Positions 18,387-29,310 of a DNA stretch of 48,180 bases are shown piece after piece. A program made the translations under genes and the position numbers. Source of the stretch: Thermodesulfovibrio sp. (GTDB lineage: Bacteria > Nitrospirota > Thermodesulfovibrionia > Thermodesulfovibrionales > UBA6898); assembly GCA_013824615.1 (NCBI GenBank), contig PNOC01000023.1, positions 1-48,180 of the forward strand, written 5' to 3'. The notes beneath the pieces are model-generated. The model searched no databases. It saw only the letters and a program-made list of their open reading frames with translations, and was not told where the DNA came from. Position 1 is the first letter of the stretch. Each line of letters starts with the position of its first letter.

Positions 18387-19361
18387 TTAATAATCCCCTG
18401 AGGCGCCTCCGCCACCCGATGAGCCACCGCCGCCAGAAAAGCCACCGCTACTTCCGCTGCTACTGCTACTTCCGCTGCTTCCGCTGGTGGAACTGGAAAA
18501 CCGCACATACATGCCGATGATACCAAACAGAGCTCCGGAACAGACATAAAACAGCCATGCAACAAGACTGGTCTCAGCCATCATCCAGTATGCGGCCACC
18601 GGACCGCATACTGCTCCAGTCAGGGCGCCAAAGATCCACTTGGGCCTCTTCTTCCTTCCCCTCGAGGCATATGTTGCACCGGCCTGCGCGTCTCCCGAAC
18701 CACCTTGAGCCTTGCTCCTTACTACCATCAGGAACTCATCGATCCGAAGCAATTTGATCAGGCTCGAAATAAGACGAACCCCCATCATCATAAGAAGTGA
18801 GTAGTAGACAACTGCGACACTATTTTCAGATAGATACCGAATAAAACTTCCGCCCCAGAAATCACGCAGCACAGATGCACTATATTGACCTTTCAGGACC
18901 GGAATAAGAGCGTCGATCCCATCCATGATTCCTGTCTCATAATCACCACCCTTGAATTTAGGGGCCATTACTGTATCTATAATAATCTTTCCGGCGGCAA
19001 GATCGGTCATCTTCCCTTTTTGCCCCCTGCCGGCCTCAATCCGGATCTTGCCTTCCTTCTGTGCCACGATCAGGATAACCCCGTTATCAAGTTTTGACGC
19101 TCCGGTTTTCCAGACTCTAAAGACCTTTGGCGCAAACTCCTCCAGCACCTCGTCTTCCAAGGTCGGTATGGTCAAAATAAATATCTGGGTGGAACTGGTT
19201 CGCTCAAGAGCATTGAGCTTCTCCTCCATGCGGGATTTGACATCTGGTGAGATTAAGCCTGCGTAGTCATTGACATATCCCTGGAGCTCTGGCACGTCAA
19301 GCGCGTGAACAGAAACTACCAGAGCAACTATCCAGACAACGATCAGTAATATTCTTTTCAT
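18387..19361 (-). CDS. TPM-domain membrane protein (YgcG/Psb32-like)
   Basis: A 324-residue protein with signal peptide MKRILLIVVWIVALVVSVHA and a TPM domain in residues 24-160 (LQGYVNDYAGLISPDVKSRM, STQIFILTIPTL, GVILIVAQKEGKIRIEAGRG). Membrane segments lie near residues 180-200 and 245-290, followed by a low-complexity Ser/Gly tail (GGFSGGGGSSGGGGASGDY). TPM proteins face the periplasm; some have phosphatase activity and others assist membrane-complex repair, so the role here is open. A similar Gly-rich tail is found on the protein at 21711-22136. A terminator separates it from the delta-60 gene upstream. Confidence 0.85.
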   Translation of the reverse strand: MKRILLIVVWIVALVVSVHALDVPELQGYVNDYAGLISPDVKSRMEEKLNALERTSSTQIFILTIPTLEDEVLEEFAPKVFRVWKTGASKLDNGVILIVAQKEGKIRIEAGRGQKGKMTDLAAGKIIIDTVMAPKFKGGDYETGIMDGIDALIPVLKGQYSASVLRDFWGGSFIRYLSENSVAVVYYSLLMMMGVRLISSLIKLLRIDEFLMVVRSKAQGGSGDAQAGATYASRGRKKRPKWIFGALTGAVCGPVAAYWMMAETSLVAWLFYVCSGALFGIIGMYVRFSSSTSGSSGSSSSSGSSGGFSGGGGSSGGGGASGDY

Positions 19362-19534: not shown

Positions 19535-21352
19535 CTACTGAATCGTTATCCCGTCAATGATCAACTCACAGGTGCCTGAGATAGTGAGCTTGGGGGCGAT
19601 GACCGTAGGGTTCGTTCCCCGGGAATCAAGTGTTGCCCACTCCCCAGAAAGCACCGGCGTCACGTTTCCAATGTCGCTGCAGTTCATGCCGGCAAGATCG
19701 AAATACAAACCCGAGAGAACCTTTATCAGATCATAGTTGTTTGCCGCAGTATCCGAAAAGGCCAGCGCCATCGTGCTGTCTGTCTTCTGAAGACTTTGGT
19801 TTTTAAACAGCCATATAGTCGCCGGCGCAAATGTGGCCTGTATGCCGAGGGCAGAACCGAGGTTCGAAAATCTGTATGACCAGACAGGTGCAAGGGTCTG
19901 ATTTAGCATTCCCCAATCGATCAGCAAGCCGGTTGTGCGGCAGCCGCTGTTTGGGACTATTGCGCAGTTTGAATCTCCCCCCTCCCAGACAGGATCAGGT
20001 GAGCAGCTGACAAACCCATCGCAGCCATTTGTTGGAATCGTTGATGTGCTTATATTGTAATACTGCGGCAGAAGTCGCATGAGGCCGCCGGTCGATCCAG
20101 GGCCATCGCCAACCTCACCTGCAACGACAATCTTTCCGTCTGGTTGAATAAGAACTGCATGAGCGCCCTCAAAGAGATTAAGGTCGGTGTAGTTATACCT
20201 CACGAGACCACCCGTTCCAAACCCGGAGTCAAGCGATCCGTTGCTGTTAAACCGCCAGACGCTGAAAGCACTATGAATCACAACTTGGGAAGTACTCCCC
20301 ACGACAACAATCTTTCCGTTGGCCTGAAGGGCAATATCTTGCACCCTGACGCTGTTGTCGGTAGCAAGAACTGCTCCAGCGGTACCAAAGCCGCTGTCGA
20401 GACTCCCGTTGCTGTTTAACCGCAGGAGCAGGACGTCATTGTCTCCGCTGCTCCCACCGACGACAATTTTTCCATCAGACTGAATGGCAATTGCAGCAGC
20501 CAATGTATTATTGCCCGGTCCGGGATAGGTGACAACACCGGATGAGCCGAATCCAGTGTCAAGGGTTCCATTTGAGTTGTACCGGAGGACAAACAGATAT
20601 GAATCGCTGACAGTGCTGACCGTGCCGCAAAGCACGAGCTTTCCATCCGACTGAATTGCTATATCACTAAAATAATAACTATGGGTGCCGTCGCCGTAGG
20701 TACCGTAAGTGCCCAAGCCTCCGGAAGCGAAAGATGAGTCATATGTTCCGTCACTGTTATACCTTAAAACAATTGCAATGGTTATTGAGCTATAGGAACA
20801 ATATCCGGCTGCGAGAATTCTGCCATCCGGCTGAACCACTATCCGTATTCCGGATTCCTCTCCCGTAGACCCAACCTTATCAGAAGCCAGTCCATTAGTC
20901 CCAAAATCGGTGTCAGGTGTGCCATTACTGTTATACCGCCAGACAGCAAAGATATAGGTTGCTCCGGCGAGAGTTTGCCGACCAGTTACCAATATCTTGC
21001 CATCCTGCTGGAGTGCAATGCCATACCCTTCACCGTTGCTGGTAAGTGCAAACCCGCCGAGACCAAAGTCACTGTCAACAGTGCCATCAGCATTAAACCG
21101 TACCAGCAGCATTCTAAAATAACCACTGACTATTGTTCGTCCAGTCGCAATTATTTTCCCGTCTGGCTGACGCACGATATCTCGCAGAACCGTATCTGTT
21201 CCCAGTGGACAACTGTACTGTAGAACTCCATCCGGGCTGCTGAATGCTGTATCAAAATCACCCGCGGCAGCAAGCACGCTTGAGGGTACGATGACGAATA
21301 AACTTATCAATAAGTAAAATGCGCTGATCAAGATCTCTTGTCTCATTTTCAT
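19535..21352 (-). CDS. Secreted delta-60 repeat (beta-propeller) protein with the ITIQ C-terminal module
   Basis: A 605-residue protein with a signal peptide (residues 1-29, ending SVLAAAG). About seven delta-60 repeats follow, each with the pattern IAIQSDGKIVV-G, V-RYNSNGSLD-GFG, which fold as a beta-propeller. From about residue 430 it switches to a divergent InlB-B-like repeat (ISTSTIPTNGCDGFVSCSPD ... IQATFAP) and then a roughly 95-residue module from IWLFKNQSL to the very end, IDGITIQ. The same C-terminal region ends the two beta-helix proteins upstream. GGGAGGAAATGAG precedes the start. It is probably cell-surface exposed; the ligand is unknown. Confidence 0.85.
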   Translation of the reverse strand: MKMRQEILISAFYLLISLFVIVPSSVLAAAGDFDTAFSSPDGVLQYSCPLGTDTVLRDIVRQPDGKIIATGRTIVSGYFRMLLVRFNADGTVDSDFGLGGFALTSNGEGYGIALQQDGKILVTGRQTLAGATYIFAVWRYNSNGTPDTDFGTNGLASDKVGSTGEESGIRIVVQPDGRILAAGYCSYSSITIAIVLRYNSDGTYDSSFASGGLGTYGTYGDGTHSYYFSDIAIQSDGKLVLCGTVSTVSDSYLFVLRYNSNGTLDTGFGSSGVVTYPGPGNNTLAAAIAIQSDGKIVVGGSSGDNDVLLLRLNSNGSLDSGFGTAGAVLATDNSVRVQDIALQANGKIVVVGSTSQVVIHSAFSVWRFNSNGSLDSGFGTGGLVRYNYTDLNLFEGAHAVLIQPDGKIVVAGEVGDGPGSTGGLMRLLPQYYNISTSTIPTNGCDGFVSCSPDPVWEGGDSNCAIVPNSGCRTTGLLIDWGMLNQTLAPVWSYRFSNLGSALGIQATFAPATIWLFKNQSLQKTDSTMALAFSDTAANNYDLIKVLSGLYFDLAGMNCSDIGNVTPVLSGEWATLDSRGTNPTVIAPKLTISGTCELIIDGITIQ

Positions 21353-21402
21353 CTCATTTCCTCCCTTTATTAAACATATGTCCGGTTCCCCCGACTCTTA
21401 CC

Positions 21403-21540
21403 CTACTGAATCGTAATTCCGTCAATGATCAGAGCACAGGCACCCATTATGGTAAGCTTCGGAGCGATGACCGTGGCAAGTAGTAACTTGAATATTAATG
21501 CTGCACTCCTATTCTCCCCTGATCTACTTTGTTTCTTCAT
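21403..21540 (-). pseudogene. 45-codon internal-deletion derivative of a surface-protein gene
   Basis: ATG at 21540, after GGAGGTTCTGA, encodes MKKQSRSGENRSAALIFKLL and two more residues, a basic-plus-hydrophobic start like a signal peptide. This is fused directly to TVIAPKLTIMGACALIIDGI then TIQ and stop, which is the last 22-23 residues of the C-terminal module of its neighbours. Everything between is missing. The frame is intact, so a peptide could still be made. I read it as a paralogue that lost its body by an internal deletion. Confidence 0.75.
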
Positions 21541-21558
21541 TCAGAACCTCCATGTCTT

Positions 21559-21666
21559 CTATTGTTTGGCTTTCCTGTCCTTTATCATCTCGATCTCCTC
21601 CCCGTATGGCTTCTCTTTCCCGGAGACAAACGATACAAAGATTGTGGCTTTTTCAGTCATATCCAT
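21559..21666 (-). pseudogene. Decayed copy of the small upstream gene (as at 23858-24082)
   Basis: A 35-codon frame (MDMTEKATIFVSFVSGKEK ...) with GGAAGGATAGGAA before its ATG. Downstream of it the DNA (GGACAGGAAAGCC ... GACATGGAGGTTCTGAATGAA) closely matches the end of the 74-residue gene and its junction with the beta-helix gene (GGACAAGAAGGCC ... GGCATGGAGGTACAGAATGAA). The reading frame differs, so a frameshift has probably occurred. Homology of the N-terminal part is weak. Confidence 0.45.
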
Positions 21667-21710
21667 TTCCTATCCTTCCCTGTGTCACCCGAAAGAACCG
21701 TTTCAGACAA

Positions 21711-22136
21711 TCAATACCCGCCGGATGCCCCACCGCCGCCGAATGAACCACCACCGCCCTTCGTACCTGATGAACTTTTCGCCCCTCCCGTTGCTCCTCC
21801 AATAACACCGTCCACTATCGCATCCATTGCCTCGGCAGCAACTTCTTTTGCAATATCTTCAGCTATGTCTGCCATGGACTGCTTCCTGTATATGCGCTGG
21901 AGGATCACATTGGACAATACAGCCATCAGAATGGAGAAGAAAACCGCAAAACCAGTGCTGAACACAATCCTCTCGACAGGATCAGGAGCGCTGTTTACAG
22001 TGTCTTGCAATTCAGCATAGAACTTCCCGTAGATAGCGGTAAAAAGAAGCGCGCCGGCAGTGCAACAGCCCAGCGCTTGCCATATCCTCCATGAAACAGG
22101 GATATTGCCGTCTTTGCGGTTCCTCTTCTTTTTCAT
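21711..22136 (-). CDS. Small membrane protein with Gly-rich tail
   Basis: A 141-residue protein. A basic N-terminus (MKKKRNRKDG) leads to two transmembrane segments (IWQALGCCTAGALLFTAIYG and IVFSTGFAVFFSILMAVLSN). An amphipathic acidic helix (ADIAEDIAKEVAAEAMDAIV) and a Gly/Ser tail follow, ending GGGGSFGGGGASGGY. The tail closely resembles that of the TPM protein at 18387-19361, so this may be a TPM-family paralogue lacking the TPM domain. The start at 22136 lies 11 bp after the beta-helix gene, with only a weak ribosome-binding site (AAAG), which suggests coupling. Function unknown. Confidence 0.65.
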   Translation of the reverse strand: MKKKRNRKDGNIPVSWRIWQALGCCTAGALLFTAIYGKFYAELQDTVNSAPDPVERIVFSTGFAVFFSILMAVLSNVILQRIYRKQSMADIAEDIAKEVAAEAMDAIVDGVIGGATGGAKSSSGTKGGGGSFGGGGASGGY

Positions 22137-22146
22137 CTTTACACAC

Positions 22147-23871
22147 TCACTGAATCGTAATCCCGTCAACGATCAGAGAGCAGGCACCAATTATGGTAAA
22201 TTTTGGAGCGATGACCGTTTGTTTGGTGTCCCTGGCAAGAAAGCTGGCCCAGCCACCCGAAAGTATTGGAATCACCCCTCCAAAATCGCCGCTGCATGTC
22301 ATACCGAAACCCTCGAAATATGCGCCGGAATGAACCCTGATTTCGTCGTCATCGTCGGCGGCAGCCAGCGTCAATGCCCCATTGATCGAGGTGGTGGTAC
22401 TGTTCACGGGCAGGCCCGGCCCCTTAAAAAGCCAGATATTGCCAGAGTTGCCTGCAAATGATGCATTGATCGTCTTGTCTCCCTGAAGATTCGGGAACCC
22501 GTATGCCCAGATAGGTCCGACAGAGACAGGAGTGCCGTAGGGTCCTGCAAGCACGTCGGTGACGTGATACCCAATGTTCGGTGTTATGGCGCAGACCGGG
22601 TCTGATTGCTCGACAATGTGATATATAGGGTTACCCCCTCCCGACACGGATTCGTACGGGGCGCAGGAGATGGCGCCGTTTGCGCCCGGGAACGTGTAGA
22701 TGCCATACTGGACCGGCTCATATTCATAAGCGCCTATATCACAGCCTCCCCATTGCGGTCGCACCACCCCTCTCTGGTCAGCAGGAGGACAGGAGGCAGC
22801 ATCCGCGGCGTCGATGGCAGGACTCCAGGAAAGGAGTGCGCGCGTCTGCGTCTGTCCCGGTGAATTCAGCGCCAGCGGCGCTATACTCGGAGCGGCATTC
22901 ACAAGATCGCCGGCTGCGGTGAAGCCGCAGGAGTTTTCACTGTCGAGATTATGACCATTCGATACAAGGCTGCCGCCCGTATAAAAGGTGCAGTTTGTCC
23001 CTGAGACGGCACTGGCTATAATCGTGTTGCTCGCATGGACAATTGGATTAGGCGCTCCGGTCACAAGAAGGTTATCCCCTGTATTGCCGGCCAATGTAAC
23101 ATGCTGGAAAGTGGCGTCACCCTTGTTAAGGACAGCAAGGCCCCCTCCTGAATGTGCCGCAGCCAGATTGTTGCTGATAGTCGAGTTCGTCAACATCAGC
23201 GGACCATATGAGCAAATGCCTCCGCCAGAACTGCTCGCCTGGTTCCCGGAAAAAGTGCTGCTGTTCGCGGTCACAGAGACCGACTTGCCAGTAGTCGCTG
23301 AATTAATGAATAGCCCGCCCCCATGAGCTGAAGCAGAATTATTGCTTATCGTGGAGTAGTATATGTTCAATACGCCGTCTTTTATCGAAAGGCCGCCTCC
23401 ATAAGCCGCGCTGTTGTTGGAAACTGTACAGTGGGAGAGGGTCACAACGGCATCGAGGACCAGGACGCCTCCGCCCACATCCCCGGGAGGAGCTGCATTT
23501 GCCGAGCCGTTCCTTATGGTCAAGCCCTCGATGTATACGAAGGCGTTATTCCCTATTTTCATTATCCGGTTACTCCCGCCTCCGCTAAGAGCAAGACTTG
23601 CAGCTCCCGGGCCGTAGATCGACATATCCGTTGCGATAAGAAGCTCGCTGGCAAGTGTGATCGTGCCCGTCACCCCGAAATAGATCTTGTCGTTAGCTAC
23701 CGCATCGTGAATTGTCTGCCTGAGAGACCCCGGCCCGCTGTCGTTCGTATTCGTGACAGTCAGGCTCGCTGACGAAGAGGTACGGGGTCCTGTTAATATT
23801 GCGGCAGCTGCAAGCAGAATTATGATTACTGTAGTACGTATATTTCTTACCGATCCTTCATGTTGTTTCAT
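22147..23871 (-). CDS. Secreted right-handed beta-helix protein with the ITIQ C-terminal module (copy B)
   Basis: A 574-residue protein with a signal peptide (RTTVIIILLAAAAILTGPRT). A CSLREA/PMP-like cap (LTVTNTNDSGPGSLRQTI) precedes a parallel beta-helix of about 280 residues with GGG-x-SNNSA type turns (HCTVSNNSAAYGGGLSI, STISNNSASAHGGGLFI) and the closing SPAIDAADAASCPPADQRGV and GGCDIGAYEYE. It ends with the InlB-B-like repeat (YGIYTFPGANGAISCAPYES) and the IWLF-to-ITIQ module. Its ATG follows GGAGGTACAGA and overlaps the small gene upstream by 14 bases, so the two are coupled. Probably an adhesin or surface-layer-type protein. Confidence 0.85.
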   Translation of the reverse strand: MKQHEGSVRNIRTTVIIILLAAAAILTGPRTSSSASLTVTNTNDSGPGSLRQTIHDAVANDKIYFGVTGTITLASELLIATDMSIYGPGAASLALSGGGSNRIMKIGNNAFVYIEGLTIRNGSANAAPPGDVGGGVLVLDAVVTLSHCTVSNNSAAYGGGLSIKDGVLNIYYSTISNNSASAHGGGLFINSATTGKSVSVTANSSTFSGNQASSSGGGICSYGPLMLTNSTISNNLAAAHSGGGLAVLNKGDATFQHVTLAGNTGDNLLVTGAPNPIVHASNTIIASAVSGTNCTFYTGGSLVSNGHNLDSENSCGFTAAGDLVNAAPSIAPLALNSPGQTQTRALLSWSPAIDAADAASCPPADQRGVVRPQWGGCDIGAYEYEPVQYGIYTFPGANGAISCAPYESVSGGGNPIYHIVEQSDPVCAITPNIGYHVTDVLAGPYGTPVSVGPIWAYGFPNLQGDKTINASFAGNSGNIWLFKGPGLPVNSTTTSINGALTLAAADDDDEIRVHSGAYFEGFGMTCSGDFGGVIPILSGGWASFLARDTKQTVIAPKFTIIGACSLIVDGITIQ

Positions 23872-24082
23872 TCTGTACCTCCATGCCTTTTTTTGTAGGC
23901 CTTCTTGTCCCGGGTTTTCGGCTGATCAGTTTCAGGAGTTCTCCCCCGCTTCCGAATTTCATTGCCCCTTCAGTCCCCACGGCCTCGACCAGTCCCACCA
24001 TCGACTCAGGGTTATCGTCATCTCTCCGGTAAATTCTTACGATATAGCTTTCAGTAACGACCGACTGCCGTTCTCTATTCAT
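23858..24082 (-). CDS. Small conserved-looking protein upstream of a beta-helix gene, 74 residues
   Basis: ATG at 24082 after CAGGAGGTCTGAAG. The protein reads MNRERQSVVTESYIVRIYRR, then a short beta-strand pattern (MVGLVEAVGTEGAMKFGSGG, ELLKLISRKP) and a basic tail. It has no signal peptide. I recall similar 60-75 residue proteins (SYIVRIYRR ... GIVE) preceding large exported proteins in related genomes, but give no function. It overlaps the beta-helix gene by 14 bases. Its first 48 bases are repeated, with 3 differences, as the start of the next beta-helix gene (24123-25910). Confidence 0.68.
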   Translation of the reverse strand: MNRERQSVVTESYIVRIYRRDDDNPESMVGLVEAVGTEGAMKFGSGGELLKLISRKPGTRRPTKKGMEVQNETT

Positions 24083-24122
24083 CTTCAGACCTCCTGGTAA
24101 ATGCTCTGTTATTACACTGCAC
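24035..24122 (-). repeat. 88-bp direct repeat, copy 1 (head of the small gene and its leader)
   Basis: Matches 25863-25950 without gaps at 77 of 88 bases: 45 of 48 in the coding part and 32 of 40 in the leader. It covers the leader, the ribosome-binding site and the first 16 codons. Confidence 0.85.
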
Positions 24123-25910
24123 CTATTGGATCGTTATCTCATCTATTTCCAAGGCGCAATTTCCGGTGATGGTGAGCTTCGGGGCGATGACCGTTGGTAT
24201 CGTGTCGGGTGCAAATGCGTTGAACCAGCCGCCCGAAAGCTTTGGAATAACGCCGCCGAAATCGCCGTTGCAGATCAGACCGAGACCCTCAAAATATGCG
24301 CCCGACTCAATCCTGATTTCGTCGTCATCTGAAGCAGCGGCTTGTGTTAGCGCCGCAGTGATTGAAGTCGTCACGGTCGAAGCCGGTACTCCGCCATTGA
24401 AGAGCCAGATGTGATTTCCGGCGAACGTGGCATGGATCACCTTGTGTTCCGATATGTTGAGGAAGCCGTATACCCAGAGAGGCCCGACGGACACTGGCTG
24501 AATGCCGCCATGGCCTATGAGCACATCGGAGACATGATAACCACCAGCAGACGGCGTCATGACACAAACCGGATCGGTTTGTTCAATCACATAATAAATC
24601 TGGCTCTCTCCGCCCGTCACAGAATGATACGGCACGCACGAAATAATGCCATTTCCGCCCGGGGTTGACGTGGAGATGGCGTACTGCCTCGCTTCGAAGG
24701 CGCCTATGTCGTAACCCAAGCCCTGCGCGCGAACAACGCCGCGCTGGTCATTCGAAGGGGCTCCATTGGGCGAATTAAACGTCACGCCATCGATGGCAGG
24801 GCTGCCGGGCAGCAGCGTCATCGAGGCTGTGCGGCCGCCGTAATATTGAAGAGGCCCCAAAAGGGGATCAGTGTTGCTAATAGAACCGTTTACCGAGCCC
24901 CAGCCGCACGTCGTCCCATCCTCGAGGTTGTTTCCGCCGTTGGTAATCGTGCCACCGCAGTTGCCACCAAGCGCGCTGTTGGTGACTATCGTATTGCTGA
25001 GCGTAGGGGCCGCAGAGCCGTAAATGCCGCCACCGTTTGAAGCGTTGTTATCCGAGAGAGTGCTGTTCGTGACTGTCAGCATGCCGGGGGCGTTATAAAT
25101 ACCTCCGCCCAAGTTGGTCGCGCTGTTAGCGTGAAAGGTGCTATTCGTAATCGTTACAGTGGAGGTGCCGCAAAAGACTCCGGCTCCATTAGCCGCAGTA
25201 TTGCCAGAAAGAACGCTGCGCGTGATGGTTCCAGCGCCGCTCGTGATATGAATACCGCCGCCGGCGTTTACCGCAGTGTTGCCGGAAAAGCTGCCGACCG
25301 TTAGCGTGAGAACCCCGTTTTGGCTACGGATGCCGCCGCCGTAACTCGCGCTATTGCCGGAGAAGGTGCCATCTGTAATGGTCAGCGTACCATCCAGGTC
25401 ATAAATGCCGCCGCCGTATTCTGTCGCATTATTGCCGGAAAGGGTACTGCTTGCAATTGTTAGTGCGCCACCGTCGTTATAAATGCCGCCGCCGGAAGTG
25501 CTGCTGCCATCGGCAATCGTGAGGTGATTCAATGTCAGAGATGCCCCGGATGCTACATACAATACTCTCGTCGCATGATTGCCGCTGACCGTGATGTTTT
25601 GAGGTGCGCCTTCTATTGTAAGCGCACCCCCTGTTGGTGCGATTTGAGGCAGAGTCGTGCTCAGTGTAATGATTCCGCTGACGCTGAACGTTATCGTATC
25701 CGCAGCCGTCGTCGCCATCGCATCCGTAATCGCCTGCCGCAGCGACCCCGGTCCGCTATCGTTTGTATTCGTAACCGTAATAGTCGCTGCCTGGGCAGCG
25801 CCGGCTGCCGCCCAGAGCGCAGCAGCCAGCAGGCAGATTGTTACTATATTGCTCAACTTCCTTCTTACGATATAGCTTTCAGCAACGACCGACTGCTGTT
25901 CTTTATTCAT
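24123..25910 (-). CDS. Secreted right-handed beta-helix protein with the ITIQ C-terminal module (copy A)
   Basis: A 595-residue protein. Its first 16 residues (MNKEQQSVVAESYIVR) copy the start of the 74-residue small protein. They are followed by the real signal peptide (KLSNIVTICLLAAALWAAAG, cut near AAQA). The CSLREA-like cap (ITVTNTNDSGPGSLRQAI) and a long beta-helix with repeated SGNNATEYGGGIY-type turns come next, then SPAIDGVTFN and GYDIGAFEAR. The InlB-B-like repeat (YAISTSTPGGNGIISCVPYH) and the IWLF-to-ITIQ module end the protein. AGGAGG precedes the ATG. It is the first gene after the regulator at 26038-29310 on the same strand. Confidence 0.85.
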   Translation of the reverse strand: MNKEQQSVVAESYIVRRKLSNIVTICLLAAALWAAAGAAQAATITVTNTNDSGPGSLRQAITDAMATTAADTITFSVSGIITLSTTLPQIAPTGGALTIEGAPQNITVSGNHATRVLYVASGASLTLNHLTIADGSSTSGGGIYNDGGALTIASSTLSGNNATEYGGGIYDLDGTLTITDGTFSGNSASYGGGIRSQNGVLTLTVGSFSGNTAVNAGGGIHITSGAGTITRSVLSGNTAANGAGVFCGTSTVTITNSTFHANSATNLGGGIYNAPGMLTVTNSTLSDNNASNGGGIYGSAAPTLSNTIVTNSALGGNCGGTITNGGNNLEDGTTCGWGSVNGSISNTDPLLGPLQYYGGRTASMTLLPGSPAIDGVTFNSPNGAPSNDQRGVVRAQGLGYDIGAFEARQYAISTSTPGGNGIISCVPYHSVTGGESQIYYVIEQTDPVCVMTPSAGGYHVSDVLIGHGGIQPVSVGPLWVYGFLNISEHKVIHATFAGNHIWLFNGGVPASTVTTSITAALTQAAASDDDEIRIESGAYFEGLGLICNGDFGGVIPKLSGGWFNAFAPDTIPTVIAPKLTITGNCALEIDEITIQ

Positions 25911-25950
25911 CTTTCGGCCTCCTGTTTAATCCTCTGTGATTACGCTGCAC
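25863..25950 (-). repeat. 88-bp direct repeat, copy 2 (head of beta-helix gene A and its leader)
   Basis: Same repeat as 24035-24122. Here the 16 repeated codons are fused to the signal peptide of the large gene instead of continuing into the small protein. Confidence 0.85.
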
Positions 25951-26037: not shown

Positions 26038-29000
26038 CTAGGATCTGCCGGTGAAACGCTCAAATAATGCGGCTGTTTGAACCGAAGGCTGAATATCAAG
26101 GCCACGAGAAAGTGCCTCGCAGCACTGCCGGTATGCACGCACAATTTCTGTTTTTTGGCCAAGGCGGTCATAGCAGAGCATAATATGCTGGTAAGACTTC
26201 TCAGAGAGATTGTCGATTTCAATGCCCCTGCGCCAGAAATGAACGGCTCTTTCATAATCTCCAGCGGTTTCAGCCGACGACGCAAGGGCCGAGATAATCG
26301 CAAGAACCTTAGTTCTCATGCGCTCCCTCATATGCAGGGTCCAGCTTTTATCACTGTCATTCTCAAGAAAAGATCCCTTATAAAGGTCGACTGCACGCTC
26401 GCAATAACGCATCTCCGCAGGAGTAAGTGAAGGTATGTTTCCGGATTCACTGCTCACCCGGTTCTTTATCTCAGTTTCATGGATATGCTCCAGTATCTGA
26501 GCATCAATCCAGCAGGAACCTGTGTCGATGCTGAACCGTCTGCCCTGAACCCGGATAAACCCATCGGTTCCCGAAAGATTGCGCAGCCGGTAAAGGTTGA
26601 CTTCAAGTGACTTGGCAGCGCTGTCCCCGTCCGCATCAGGCCAAAGCGCATCAAGCAGCTTCTCCTGCGGAACATCCCTGCCGCCATAGGCGATGATGGC
26701 CTTGAGGAGCTCAAGAGGCTTCTTCTGGATCTTGCCAGAGAATTCAAGCGGCTCATCGTTCAGCAGAATCCTGAAACTCCCGAGTGTATATATTTTGACC
26801 GGATATGGCCACTTTTCAGTGCCCGAAGATGTGGGGTCGGGAATAAGCCTTCTTTTGATAATCAGATGCCTCACATACTCCTCTTCAATGCCCTCCTCAA
26901 GCGCGCGCCTGCATAAGCGGGCCATAACCTCTGGCTGCCACCACCAGAACATGCTTATGTATCCCCGCTGCCGTCCCAGTTCCATGGCTTTGCGCAGATG
27001 ACTCACTCCTTCTTTCTGCTTACCCCTGTCAAAACTGAACTGGGCCTCAGTCATCAGGATCATATATCTCAGAATGCCGCTTTCTGTCTTTTCGGCCAGC
27101 CCCTGGGCAACCGAGAGTTGATTGTCCGCCTTTTGGTAGTCTTTTTGTTCGTTCGCTATCTGCGCTATCACAAAATGGGGCTGAAATTCAGCCTCGGGAA
27201 GGAACGCCCCGCTCATTTCGATGAACTTCAATCCCTCCTCAGCATGCGAAAGCGCTGCAGTTGTCTCATCTCTGAGAAGGTAGTACCATGCAGCGAGTAT
27301 ATGATAGTGAAACAAGCCGAAACACTTCGGACCTGCCAGAGACTCCTTCATTTTTTCAAGAAAATCACCGCCGGCCTTAATATCCCGGGTGTTCAAAGAA
27401 TAACAGACGCCCTGCGCATAGAGCATATGGTCCCATATATGAATACCGATTTCGTCAGATGTCTGAAGATATTCAGAAATACTTCTGGAAGAACCGATGA
27501 AGTCCATCGTCAGGATATCGATAGAGGGCTCCATACCATTGCAGAGGGCCTTCATCATTGGGGATACGCCGGCCGACTTCCACGTGCTCGCAAGTTCATC
27601 GGACACGATGCGGGCCCCGGCAAAATCACCAGACAGGAAATAAAACTGTATTGCTCCGTGGCAGGCCTGCAGGCGCAGGTTAATATCCCCGGCTGTCAGC
27701 GTAAGCCTCATGGCCCGCTCATGCCATTCCCTCAAGTCAGAAGGCGATCCCCGTCTCCACATAAGCGCGGTAGCCATCGAAACGCTCACAACCGCCTCTA
27801 TCTGAGGGGATGGGAAGGTCTTATTCTTCTTCATACGCTTTTGAAGCCATTCAATGAGTGTGTCCATTTTCCTGAATTGATCCCACTCATGAAGGAGAGA
27901 AGTCACCGTGGCAGACCAGGAAAGCAGCATGCCGGTATCGTCCTTCCGGGCATCGAAGAGCTGAAATGCCCGATCGAGAAGCTTTCGGCTCCCTGCAGGA
28001 TCAAACGGTAACCGGCAGATGCCGAGCCAGTATTGCAGCCACGGAACATTATCCGCAATCGCCTTGGGAATAGATCTGATCCAGGCATCCAGCGTCTGGC
28101 CTCTTCCCTGGGCAACAAGGCCCTGCGCATGGGAAAGAGCCAACCGTATAAGATGTTCCCACGCCCCGGCCTCCTGGTAGAGCGCAGCGGCCTCCTCCAT
28201 CCTGGTCTCAGCCTCAATAATAGAGGCAGTAAGGATCTGTACTCCGGCTACTTCTTCCGGCCTGAAAGTACTTCTGGCTCGGGATTGCAGAAACTCCCGA
28301 AATAAGGGGTGGTACTGAAATACAGGCTTCGGCAGAGAACGCCAATCGGTGAAATAATGACTGCGACTCAACCTTGACAATATGCTCCGCGACTTCTTGT
28401 TGCCGGTAAGTGCTTCGGCAGCAGCAACCGTCATGGAGGGAAAGAAGGAGGTCTTAAGAAGAAAATCACGCGTCTCAAGGTCCATCTTATCCAGGATCTC
28501 GTTCGCAAAGTACCCAAAGACCGCTTCGTTCGAGAGTTCGCTGATCAATGGATACGCAATTTCCTCTGCCTTCGCTCTTTCAGTAATAAGCACCAGACCT
28601 GCAGCCCAGCCGTCGGTCCTTTTGTGAAGCTGCCGGACCGATTCCTCCGACAAGGCCTTTCCTTCCAGAAAATCGCGACACTCCTGAAAAGTGAAGCTGA
28701 GTTCATTCCAGCCCATGAAGGAGATTCCGTTGTTTGCCCTCAGACGTGCAAGCTCCTGTGGAGGTTCCGAGCGACTCAGCGCAATAACGCTGATACCCTC
28801 CGGTATCACCTCCATTGCGCAGCCCATGATATCGTGAAAGGCAGGGGAGGGGGCGTCCTGGAAGTTGTCAATGACGATAACGCCCCCAAACCCCCTCTTT
28901 GAGAAAGAGGGGGAGCGAGAAGGTGTCAGTCGCCCGAAGAGTTCTTCGAAATACCGGCGGGTGAACGTCGGAAGGCCCATCATATATTCCGGGGTAAGCA

Positions 29001-29310
29001 GCGGCAGTGGCTTTTTGTGACGGGGTGCGGCTTTCTTCGCCGCAAGGCCCATATAGTAAAAGAAGGAGGCTATATCTGCATCGCCCTCATCGACCTGATA
29101 CCATAGACAGGGCAGTTTACGCGAATCGATCCAGCTGGCAACAAGGGTAGTCTTGCCGGCTCCGGCAGGGCCGGTTACCCATATCACAGGCTTCTTCAGT
29201 CCTGAGTCCAGCATCCTAAAGAGTCTCTGCCTCGGCACAACCCCCGAGACCGAAGGTCTCGCAATCTTGACTAATGAAACAGACCCTGTTCTCGTCACCC
29301 CATCCACCAT
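26038..29310 (-). CDS. MalT/SARP-type transcriptional activator (STAND ATPase, TPR, winged helix, BTAD)
   Basis: A 1090-residue cytoplasmic regulator. Residues 20-330 form a MalT-like STAND ATPase with Walker A GPAGAGKTT (47-55) and Walker B VIVID (144-148). Residues 350-800 are helical TPR-like repeats. From about 850, YPVKIYTLGSFRILLNDEPL begins an OmpR-type winged helix (KPLELLKAIIAYGGRDVPQE, SLEVNLYRLR), followed by a bacterial transcriptional activator domain to the end. It probably controls the beta-helix genes starting 127 bp downstream; this is inferred from position only. Residues 133-143 (SPSFSKRGFGG) are encoded by a palindromic insertion. No ribosome-binding site is visible before the ATG at 29310. 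Confidence 0.85.
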   Translation of the reverse strand: MVDGVTRTGSVSLVKIARPSVSGVVPRQRLFRMLDSGLKKPVIWVTGPAGAGKTTLVASWIDSRKLPCLWYQVDEGDADIASFFYYMGLAAKKAAPRHKKPLPLLTPEYMMGLPTFTRRYFEELFGRLTPSRSPSFSKRGFGGVIVIDNFQDAPSPAFHDIMGCAMEVIPEGISVIALSRSEPPQELARLRANNGISFMGWNELSFTFQECRDFLEGKALSEESVRQLHKRTDGWAAGLVLITERAKAEEIAYPLISELSNEAVFGYFANEILDKMDLETRDFLLKTSFFPSMTVAAAEALTGNKKSRSILSRLSRSHYFTDWRSLPKPVFQYHPLFREFLQSRARSTFRPEEVAGVQILTASIIEAETRMEEAAALYQEAGAWEHLIRLALSHAQGLVAQGRGQTLDAWIRSIPKAIADNVPWLQYWLGICRLPFDPAGSRKLLDRAFQLFDARKDDTGMLLSWSATVTSLLHEWDQFRKMDTLIEWLQKRMKKNKTFPSPQIEAVVSVSMATALMWRRGSPSDLREWHERAMRLTLTAGDINLRLQACHGAIQFYFLSGDFAGARIVSDELASTWKSAGVSPMMKALCNGMEPSIDILTMDFIGSSRSISEYLQTSDEIGIHIWDHMLYAQGVCYSLNTRDIKAGGDFLEKMKESLAGPKCFGLFHYHILAAWYYLLRDETTAALSHAEEGLKFIEMSGAFLPEAEFQPHFVIAQIANEQKDYQKADNQLSVAQGLAEKTESGILRYMILMTEAQFSFDRGKQKEGVSHLRKAMELGRQRGYISMFWWWQPEVMARLCRRALEEGIEEEYVRHLIIKRRLIPDPTSSGTEKWPYPVKIYTLGSFRILLNDEPLEFSGKIQKKPLELLKAIIAYGGRDVPQEKLLDALWPDADGDSAAKSLEVNLYRLRNLSGTDGFIRVQGRRFSIDTGSCWIDAQILEHIHETEIKNRVSSESGNIPSLTPAEMRYCERAVDLYKGSFLENDSDKSWTLHMRERMRTKVLAIISALASSAETAGDYERAVHFWRRGIEIDNLSEKSYQHIMLCYDRLGQKTEIVRAYRQCCEALSRGLDIQPSVQTAALFERFTGRS
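28891..28913. repeat. Palindromic element inserted in frame in the regulator gene
   Basis: CCCCCTCTTT-GAG-AAAGAGGGGG is a perfect 10-bp inverted repeat with a 3-base loop. On the coding strand it encodes part of SPSFSKRGFGG just before the Walker B strand, a low-complexity stretch unlike the family around it. Such C-run/G-run palindromes are typical of dispersed repeats. Confidence 0.65.

Follow-up and report, generated by a model that had tools for sequence, protein, structure and literature searches.

Why should neighbouring exported proteins end almost alike when what precedes the ends is not the same? The question is raised by a 48,180-nt stretch of DNA (hereafter the window; all coordinates are positions within it) from a Nitrospirota bacterium with a 3.6-Mb genome, in which three minus-strand genes, here called A (19535-21352, 605 aa), B (22147-23871, 574 aa) and C (24123-25910, 595 aa), each encode a signal peptide-like start and, up to the stop codon, a terminal module of about 95 residues ending in ITIQ. 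We find this module to be a homologous, unnamed domain, C-terminal in most cases, that dozens of exported proteins share although their bodies vary, and we see an even chance that it serves as a self-folding docking or sorting domain of some 85-95 residues that destines exported proteins for the cell surface.

The three modules (A, 19538-19819, IWLFKNQ...ELIIDGITIQ; B, 22150-22437, IWLFKGPG...LIVDGITIQ; C, 24126-24413, HIWLFNGG...LEIDEITIQ) bring their proteins to an end with GITIQ, GITIQ and EITIQ, respectively. Over the last ~96 residues the tails are 46-67% identical to that of C, their last 85 nt of DNA are 68-74% identical, and a tail profile scores all three at E 3e-48 to 1e-53; this profile was built from A-C themselves, yet an independent fourth copy on another contig (C63) still scores E 1e-27. 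The tails are thus homologous, with a similarity far beyond chance, and the common C-terminal region claimed in the earlier note is real. The DNA similarity recurs a fourth time from 21399, where 24 module residues (21406-21477, minus strand, E 2e-8, ATVIAPKLTIMGACALIIDGITIQ*) lie inside a 45-aa open frame with no body before them; this fragment, suspected earlier at 21403-21540, is a pseudogene remnant, a decayed tandem duplicate.

The same note had counted three different bodies. B and C are in fact homologous end to end (43% identity over 601 columns), so that there are two body types and only that of A, a delta-60/DUF5122 beta-propeller, differs. B carries a right-handed beta-helix and C a beta-helix with POMP-type repeats, each followed by a choice-of-anchor Q domain (choice_anch_Q, NF041518; 22717-22890 in B, E 2e-20; 24690-24869 in C, E 1e-19). 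A and two further module proteins, L004 and L015, have only a tail of ~180 residues in common with B and C. Directly before the module A has a further domain of ~80 residues (19820-20062, boundaries approximate) that is common to B, C (24414-24689) and L004, and that was modelled in C as an immunoglobulin-like (Ig-like) beta-sandwich (model m93329f0ba61a, residues ~1-101). It had been read as an InlB-B-like repeat, which the model corrects to an Ig-like sandwich; Pfam gives no InlB match on A-C, although the divergent InlB B-repeat family PF18998 does match 5 of 65 related proteins.

How far does the module reach beyond the window? The profile of the three tails found, besides the fourth intact copy on C63, a distant one on contig C4, and was then broadened with relatives' sequences for a genome-wide search. 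This gave 44 matches, from which we set aside the window fragment and one weak match (E 0.6, in the context of a heme-binding motif, CMACH), leaving 42 credible intact copies in this one genome where the earlier note had seen three. At E<=0.001 one or more matches came from 51 of the phylum's 396 genomes, although part of the weak matches are beta-helix proteins and not the module; G000-G003 reach 9 to 13 or more. Matches in a second phylum (that of genome G405, labelled Thermodesulfobacteriota) come from 33 of 345 genomes at E<=1e-4, the low end again including weak beta-helix matches, and two of its genomes (G559 and G607) hold at least 14 copies each. A search with a consensus protein returned nine loci; seven carry Nitrospirae/Nitrospiraceae or BMS3Abin06 in their titles and one carries Thermodesulfobacteriota. 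Plasmids gave no module match. Searches of the literature yielded nothing on this module, and the only PDB match by sequence was an implausible phosphoribosyltransferase (E 0.007). Likewise, scans of single modules against Pfam and NCBIfam returned scattered sub-threshold matches and no fitting model, and it is correct, as had been supposed, that no named family in either collection covers it.

The position of the module within its proteins is biased overwhelmingly to the C-terminus. In the genome of the window 36 of the 42 intact copies end 0-8 residues before the stop codon. Over all loci fetched from Nitrospirota and the second phylum, 108 copies score E<1e-15; 89 of these are C-terminal, another 6 stop 9-40 residues short of the protein end and 13 lie elsewhere. 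One profile retrieved all these loci, some of them from related genomes, so the counts do not represent independent events. Placement at the C-terminus, the proposed check, is the rule without being strict; of the 13 copies elsewhere, most follow a signal peptide directly or are the first of two. Weak matches (E 1e-10 to 1e-3) are C-terminal in only 2 of 15 cases. Among 97 terminal copies, 52 finish with Q and 80 with one of Q, K, E or R. In a subgroup of the second phylum (L128, L129, L131, L132 and L150) the protein continues for 17-32 residues beyond the last strand (e.g. EDGTTSLAQTAVPLS...). By a simple rule, signal peptide-like starts were called in 60 of 74 module open reading frames (ORFs) whose 5' end is complete; among control ORFs the rule called 8 of 28.

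The bodies to which the module is attached are diverse. With the module cut off, 65 of them matched 65 Pfam families, among them PKD (14), subtilase (6), laminin G (4) and beta-helix (4), and further NHL, SBBP, FG-GAP and multicopper oxidase as well as lectin and propeller domains; the idea that bodies vary while the tail stays constant and mostly terminal has strong support. Two proteins, L007 and L015, have tails 57% identical while BLAST aligns nothing between their bodies, so that tails move from body to body by cassette transfer. Among the same 65 bodies NCBIfam finds 15 choice-of-anchor domain matches, choice_anch_D in 8 and choice_anch_Q in 7. By NCBI naming, these domains stand ahead of a sorting signal whose kind changes with the lineage. 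They abut the module in two proteins, L059 (430-486, module from ~487) and L057 (383-475, module from ~484), so that there the module stands where a sorting signal is expected; in B and C one Ig-like domain lies between.

What kind of structure could do this? We modelled the module alone since a model of the C tail with its Ig-like domain was dominated by Ig-like matches such as pilins. For that longer tail the best AlphaFold model reached a predicted local distance difference test (pLDDT) score of 91.0 and the other four 65-70, and for the module alone (99 residues, model mf1e717c025cf) the best reached 91.1 and the others 88-91, the five models agreeing. It is predicted to be a mini beta-solenoid, a capping helix and then about two to three coils of short strands. 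It has no C-terminal cap, its final strand lying at residues 96-98 of 99. Foldseek found nothing at E<=0.001; its top rows (CorA) span 39 residues and were dismissed, and chondroitinase B aligned at a template modelling (TM) score of 0.45. VIA-align gave weak Z values (2.3-3.7), with 8 of 10 rows being, judging by their titles, what we take to be proteins of beta-helix or phage tail-fibre/tailspike type. Several of the structural alignments cover N-terminal parts (Pel9A 36-150, RbmB 31-127, NosD 33-96; Z 2.3-3.2), and the family profile also matches the starts of genuine beta-helix proteins (L153-L165, E 1e-5 to 1e-13). The module, we infer, derives from the N-terminal cap and first coils of a right-handed beta-helix or mimics them. 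The alternative offered in the earlier note, a structural beta-helix cap, accordingly agrees with the predicted fold; the module is not simply the body's next rung, given that an Ig-like domain intervenes and most bodies are not beta-helices. From copy to copy mean column identity is 31-38%. A cysteine at the N-terminal edge, before the first strand, and the cysteine of a GGYDC motif are both present in 52 of 86 copies; 12 have just one of them and 22 have none (Fisher p 5e-10, without correction for relatedness). The subfamily of the window lacks the GGYDC cysteine and has an alternative pair around the second and third coils in 6 of 6 tails. Such covarying pairs point to a disulfide that staples this exported domain.

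Taken together, these observations are compatible with the following mechanism. The module proteins would leave the cytoplasm by Sec, given their signal peptide-like starts, and the module would fold outside it into a disulfide-stapled mini beta-solenoid with an N-capping helix and about two to three coils, its last strand left uncapped and its final residue polar, most often Q. Recognition by a shared receptor, a component of the envelope or a secretion port could follow, and would deliver or hold very different bodies (proteases, lectins, propellers, beta-helices, oxidases) at the same place. More tentatively, and with clearly less than an even chance in our view, the module would be the cargo signal of an undescribed system for sorting proteins or attaching them to the surface, shared by Nitrospirota with one or more other phyla, in which a folded beta-solenoid serves as signal for dozens of substrates per genome.

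Several observations weigh against a docking or sorting role. At least seven copies are N-terminal, starting at about residue 27-64 straight after a signal peptide-like stretch, and a few interior copies are the first module of two-copy proteins. The copies after signal peptides show that a free C-terminus is not essential; they favour a folded docking domain over a signal that needs a free C-terminus, and of the earlier proposal of a sorting, anchoring or secretion tag, which is supported in part, a purely C-terminal secretion tag becomes less likely. In the same genus the complete genome G004 gives no module match at E<=0.001, which makes the system, whatever its nature, dispensable in this lineage. 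The stretches read beside module genes showed no dedicated peptidase, sortase or secretion gene, the co-occurring partner proposed for a check. Lastly, not every module genome has exosortase, though many do; PF09721 went undetected in G607, G642, G113 and others. Among 61 relatives, exosortase or exopolysaccharide (EPS)-type genes are found in 12 of 12 genomes with a strong module and in 15 of the 49 others, and the genome of the window has exosortase-like genes on contigs C26 and C10. In a wider set the co-occurrence failed (PF09721 in 27 of 41 module genomes vs 18 of 39 module-free genomes, with some module-rich genomes lacking it), and exosortase was rejected as partner. The 20-kb stretches of contigs C63 and C17 have no recurrent neighbour gene in common, and the SprA model TIGR04189 matched none of 41 genomes, nor any control genome. 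On contig C4 the gene (L006 1790-2947) that follows a leucine-rich repeat module protein ends in VGVPTLSTWSMLLFVFLCGVTSIRFLQSRG, which is IPTL-CTERM-like, so that two kinds of tail coexist.

Could the module act without a receptor? Its uncapped last coil might be an exposed beta edge by which modules and beta-helix bodies stack into a surface layer or matrix, and proteins would then be retained by self-assembly. The model does end on uncapped strands (92-94 and 96-98), copies per genome are many and some bodies are themselves beta-helices; but the polar last residue, the low identity between modules and the way N-terminal copies run on into other domains make this unlikely. We give a similarly low probability to a specific form of anchoring, in which the mini-solenoid binds a surface polysaccharide (exopolysaccharide, lipopolysaccharide) and so holds enzymes and adhesins in the matrix. 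Its weak structural neighbours are mostly polysaccharide-active beta-helices (Pel9A, RbmB, AlyGC, chondroitinase B), carbohydrate-binding module-like domains are similarly found at either terminus, and the exosortase/EPS-type genes of the strong-module genomes fit such a role. Against this, beta-helix enzymes use a long groove of many coils where the module has two to three, the Z values are low (2.4-3.7), and exosortase is absent from other module-rich genomes. Least probable, and improbable outright, is an inert, protease-resistant end cap duplicated from a beta-helix N-terminus and without a role in recognition, since, for all its weak sequence relation to the N-terminal segments of genuine beta-helices, its disulfide staple and the local tandem duplication in the window, caps are needed on beta-helices and yet the module ends propeller, PKD, subtilase and lectin proteins, has a nearly constant end point and adjoins choice-of-anchor domains.

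To our knowledge, surface-protein sorting in Nitrospirota has been little studied. If the module does sort or anchor proteins, one pathway would gain as substrates about 40 exported proteins of a single genome, many of which are at present seen as unrelated hypotheticals. Its receptor could then be sought by phylogenetic profiling, from which the PEP-CTERM/exosortase pairing came (PMC1569441), and the module profile is a ready search tool.

Around A-C the window holds further signs of duplication. A direct repeat of 89 nt (88% identical; 24034-24122 and 25862-25950) covers the start of gene C, and its other copy, between C and B, resembles a gene start left over from tandem duplication. A 152-aa ORF (21714-22169, minus strand) ends in GGGGSFGGGGASGGY, similar to the end of a TPM-domain protein at 18390-19361 (minus strand, GGGGSSGGGGASGDY), of which it is perhaps a truncated duplicate; this would imply duplication of a segment with a TPM gene and a module gene. 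Directly upstream of A-C lies a gene (26041-29310, minus strand) that reads as a 1090-aa MalT-like ATPase regulator with a BTAD-like C-terminal part, possibly their regulator; it is single-copy in the genome and was rejected as a recurrent partner.

How does the module compare with known systems? The type IX secretion system (T9SS) handles Sec-exported multidomain proteins of diverse body with a folded C-terminal domain of ~80 residues (PMC12618676). Similar to those domains (TIGR04183, TIGR04131), the module combines Sec signal peptide-like starts with C-terminal placement on varied bodies, many per genome; in a comparison of 30 modules with NCBIfam at E<=1 neither model appeared. The T9SS C-terminal domain is an Ig-like sandwich, whereas the module is predicted to be a beta-solenoid, occurs outside Bacteroidota and can be N-terminal. 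PEP-CTERM is likewise a region of C-terminal homology among otherwise unrelated proteins that environmental bacteria export, and goes with exosortase (PMC1569441). The likeness to PEP-CTERM and IPTL-CTERM extends to the exosortase-like genes and IPTL-like tail of the window's own genome, but the layout of motif, transmembrane helix and basic cluster is absent from the module, which ends on a beta strand; no CTERM model of NCBIfam matched the 30 modules, and exosortase does not accompany the module in every genome. Type V autotransporters end in a 12-strand beta-barrel of ~250-300 residues, far from a mini-solenoid of ~95, and no barrel model of Pfam or NCBIfam matched the same 30. In its predicted form the module resembles the N-terminal cap and first coils of right-handed beta-helices (pectate lyase Pel9A, RbmB, NosD), where a capping helix likewise comes before strands of the types D-x-I, GG(Y/W) and (T)I-x-G-x-(L)TI; the module differs in having two to three coils, in standing alone at the C-terminus of mostly non-beta-helix proteins and in lacking a C-terminal cap. 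Choice-of-anchor domains (NF041518, NF012200) share proteins with the module and lie right before it, but they precede a sorting signal, while the module, C-terminal of them at the protein end, occupies the signal's own place. The module thus belongs to none of the sorting and anchor domain classes tested; with no cleavable hydrophobic anchor segment, it would in its proposed role act like a T9SS C-terminal domain or a dockerin, built on a fold of its own.

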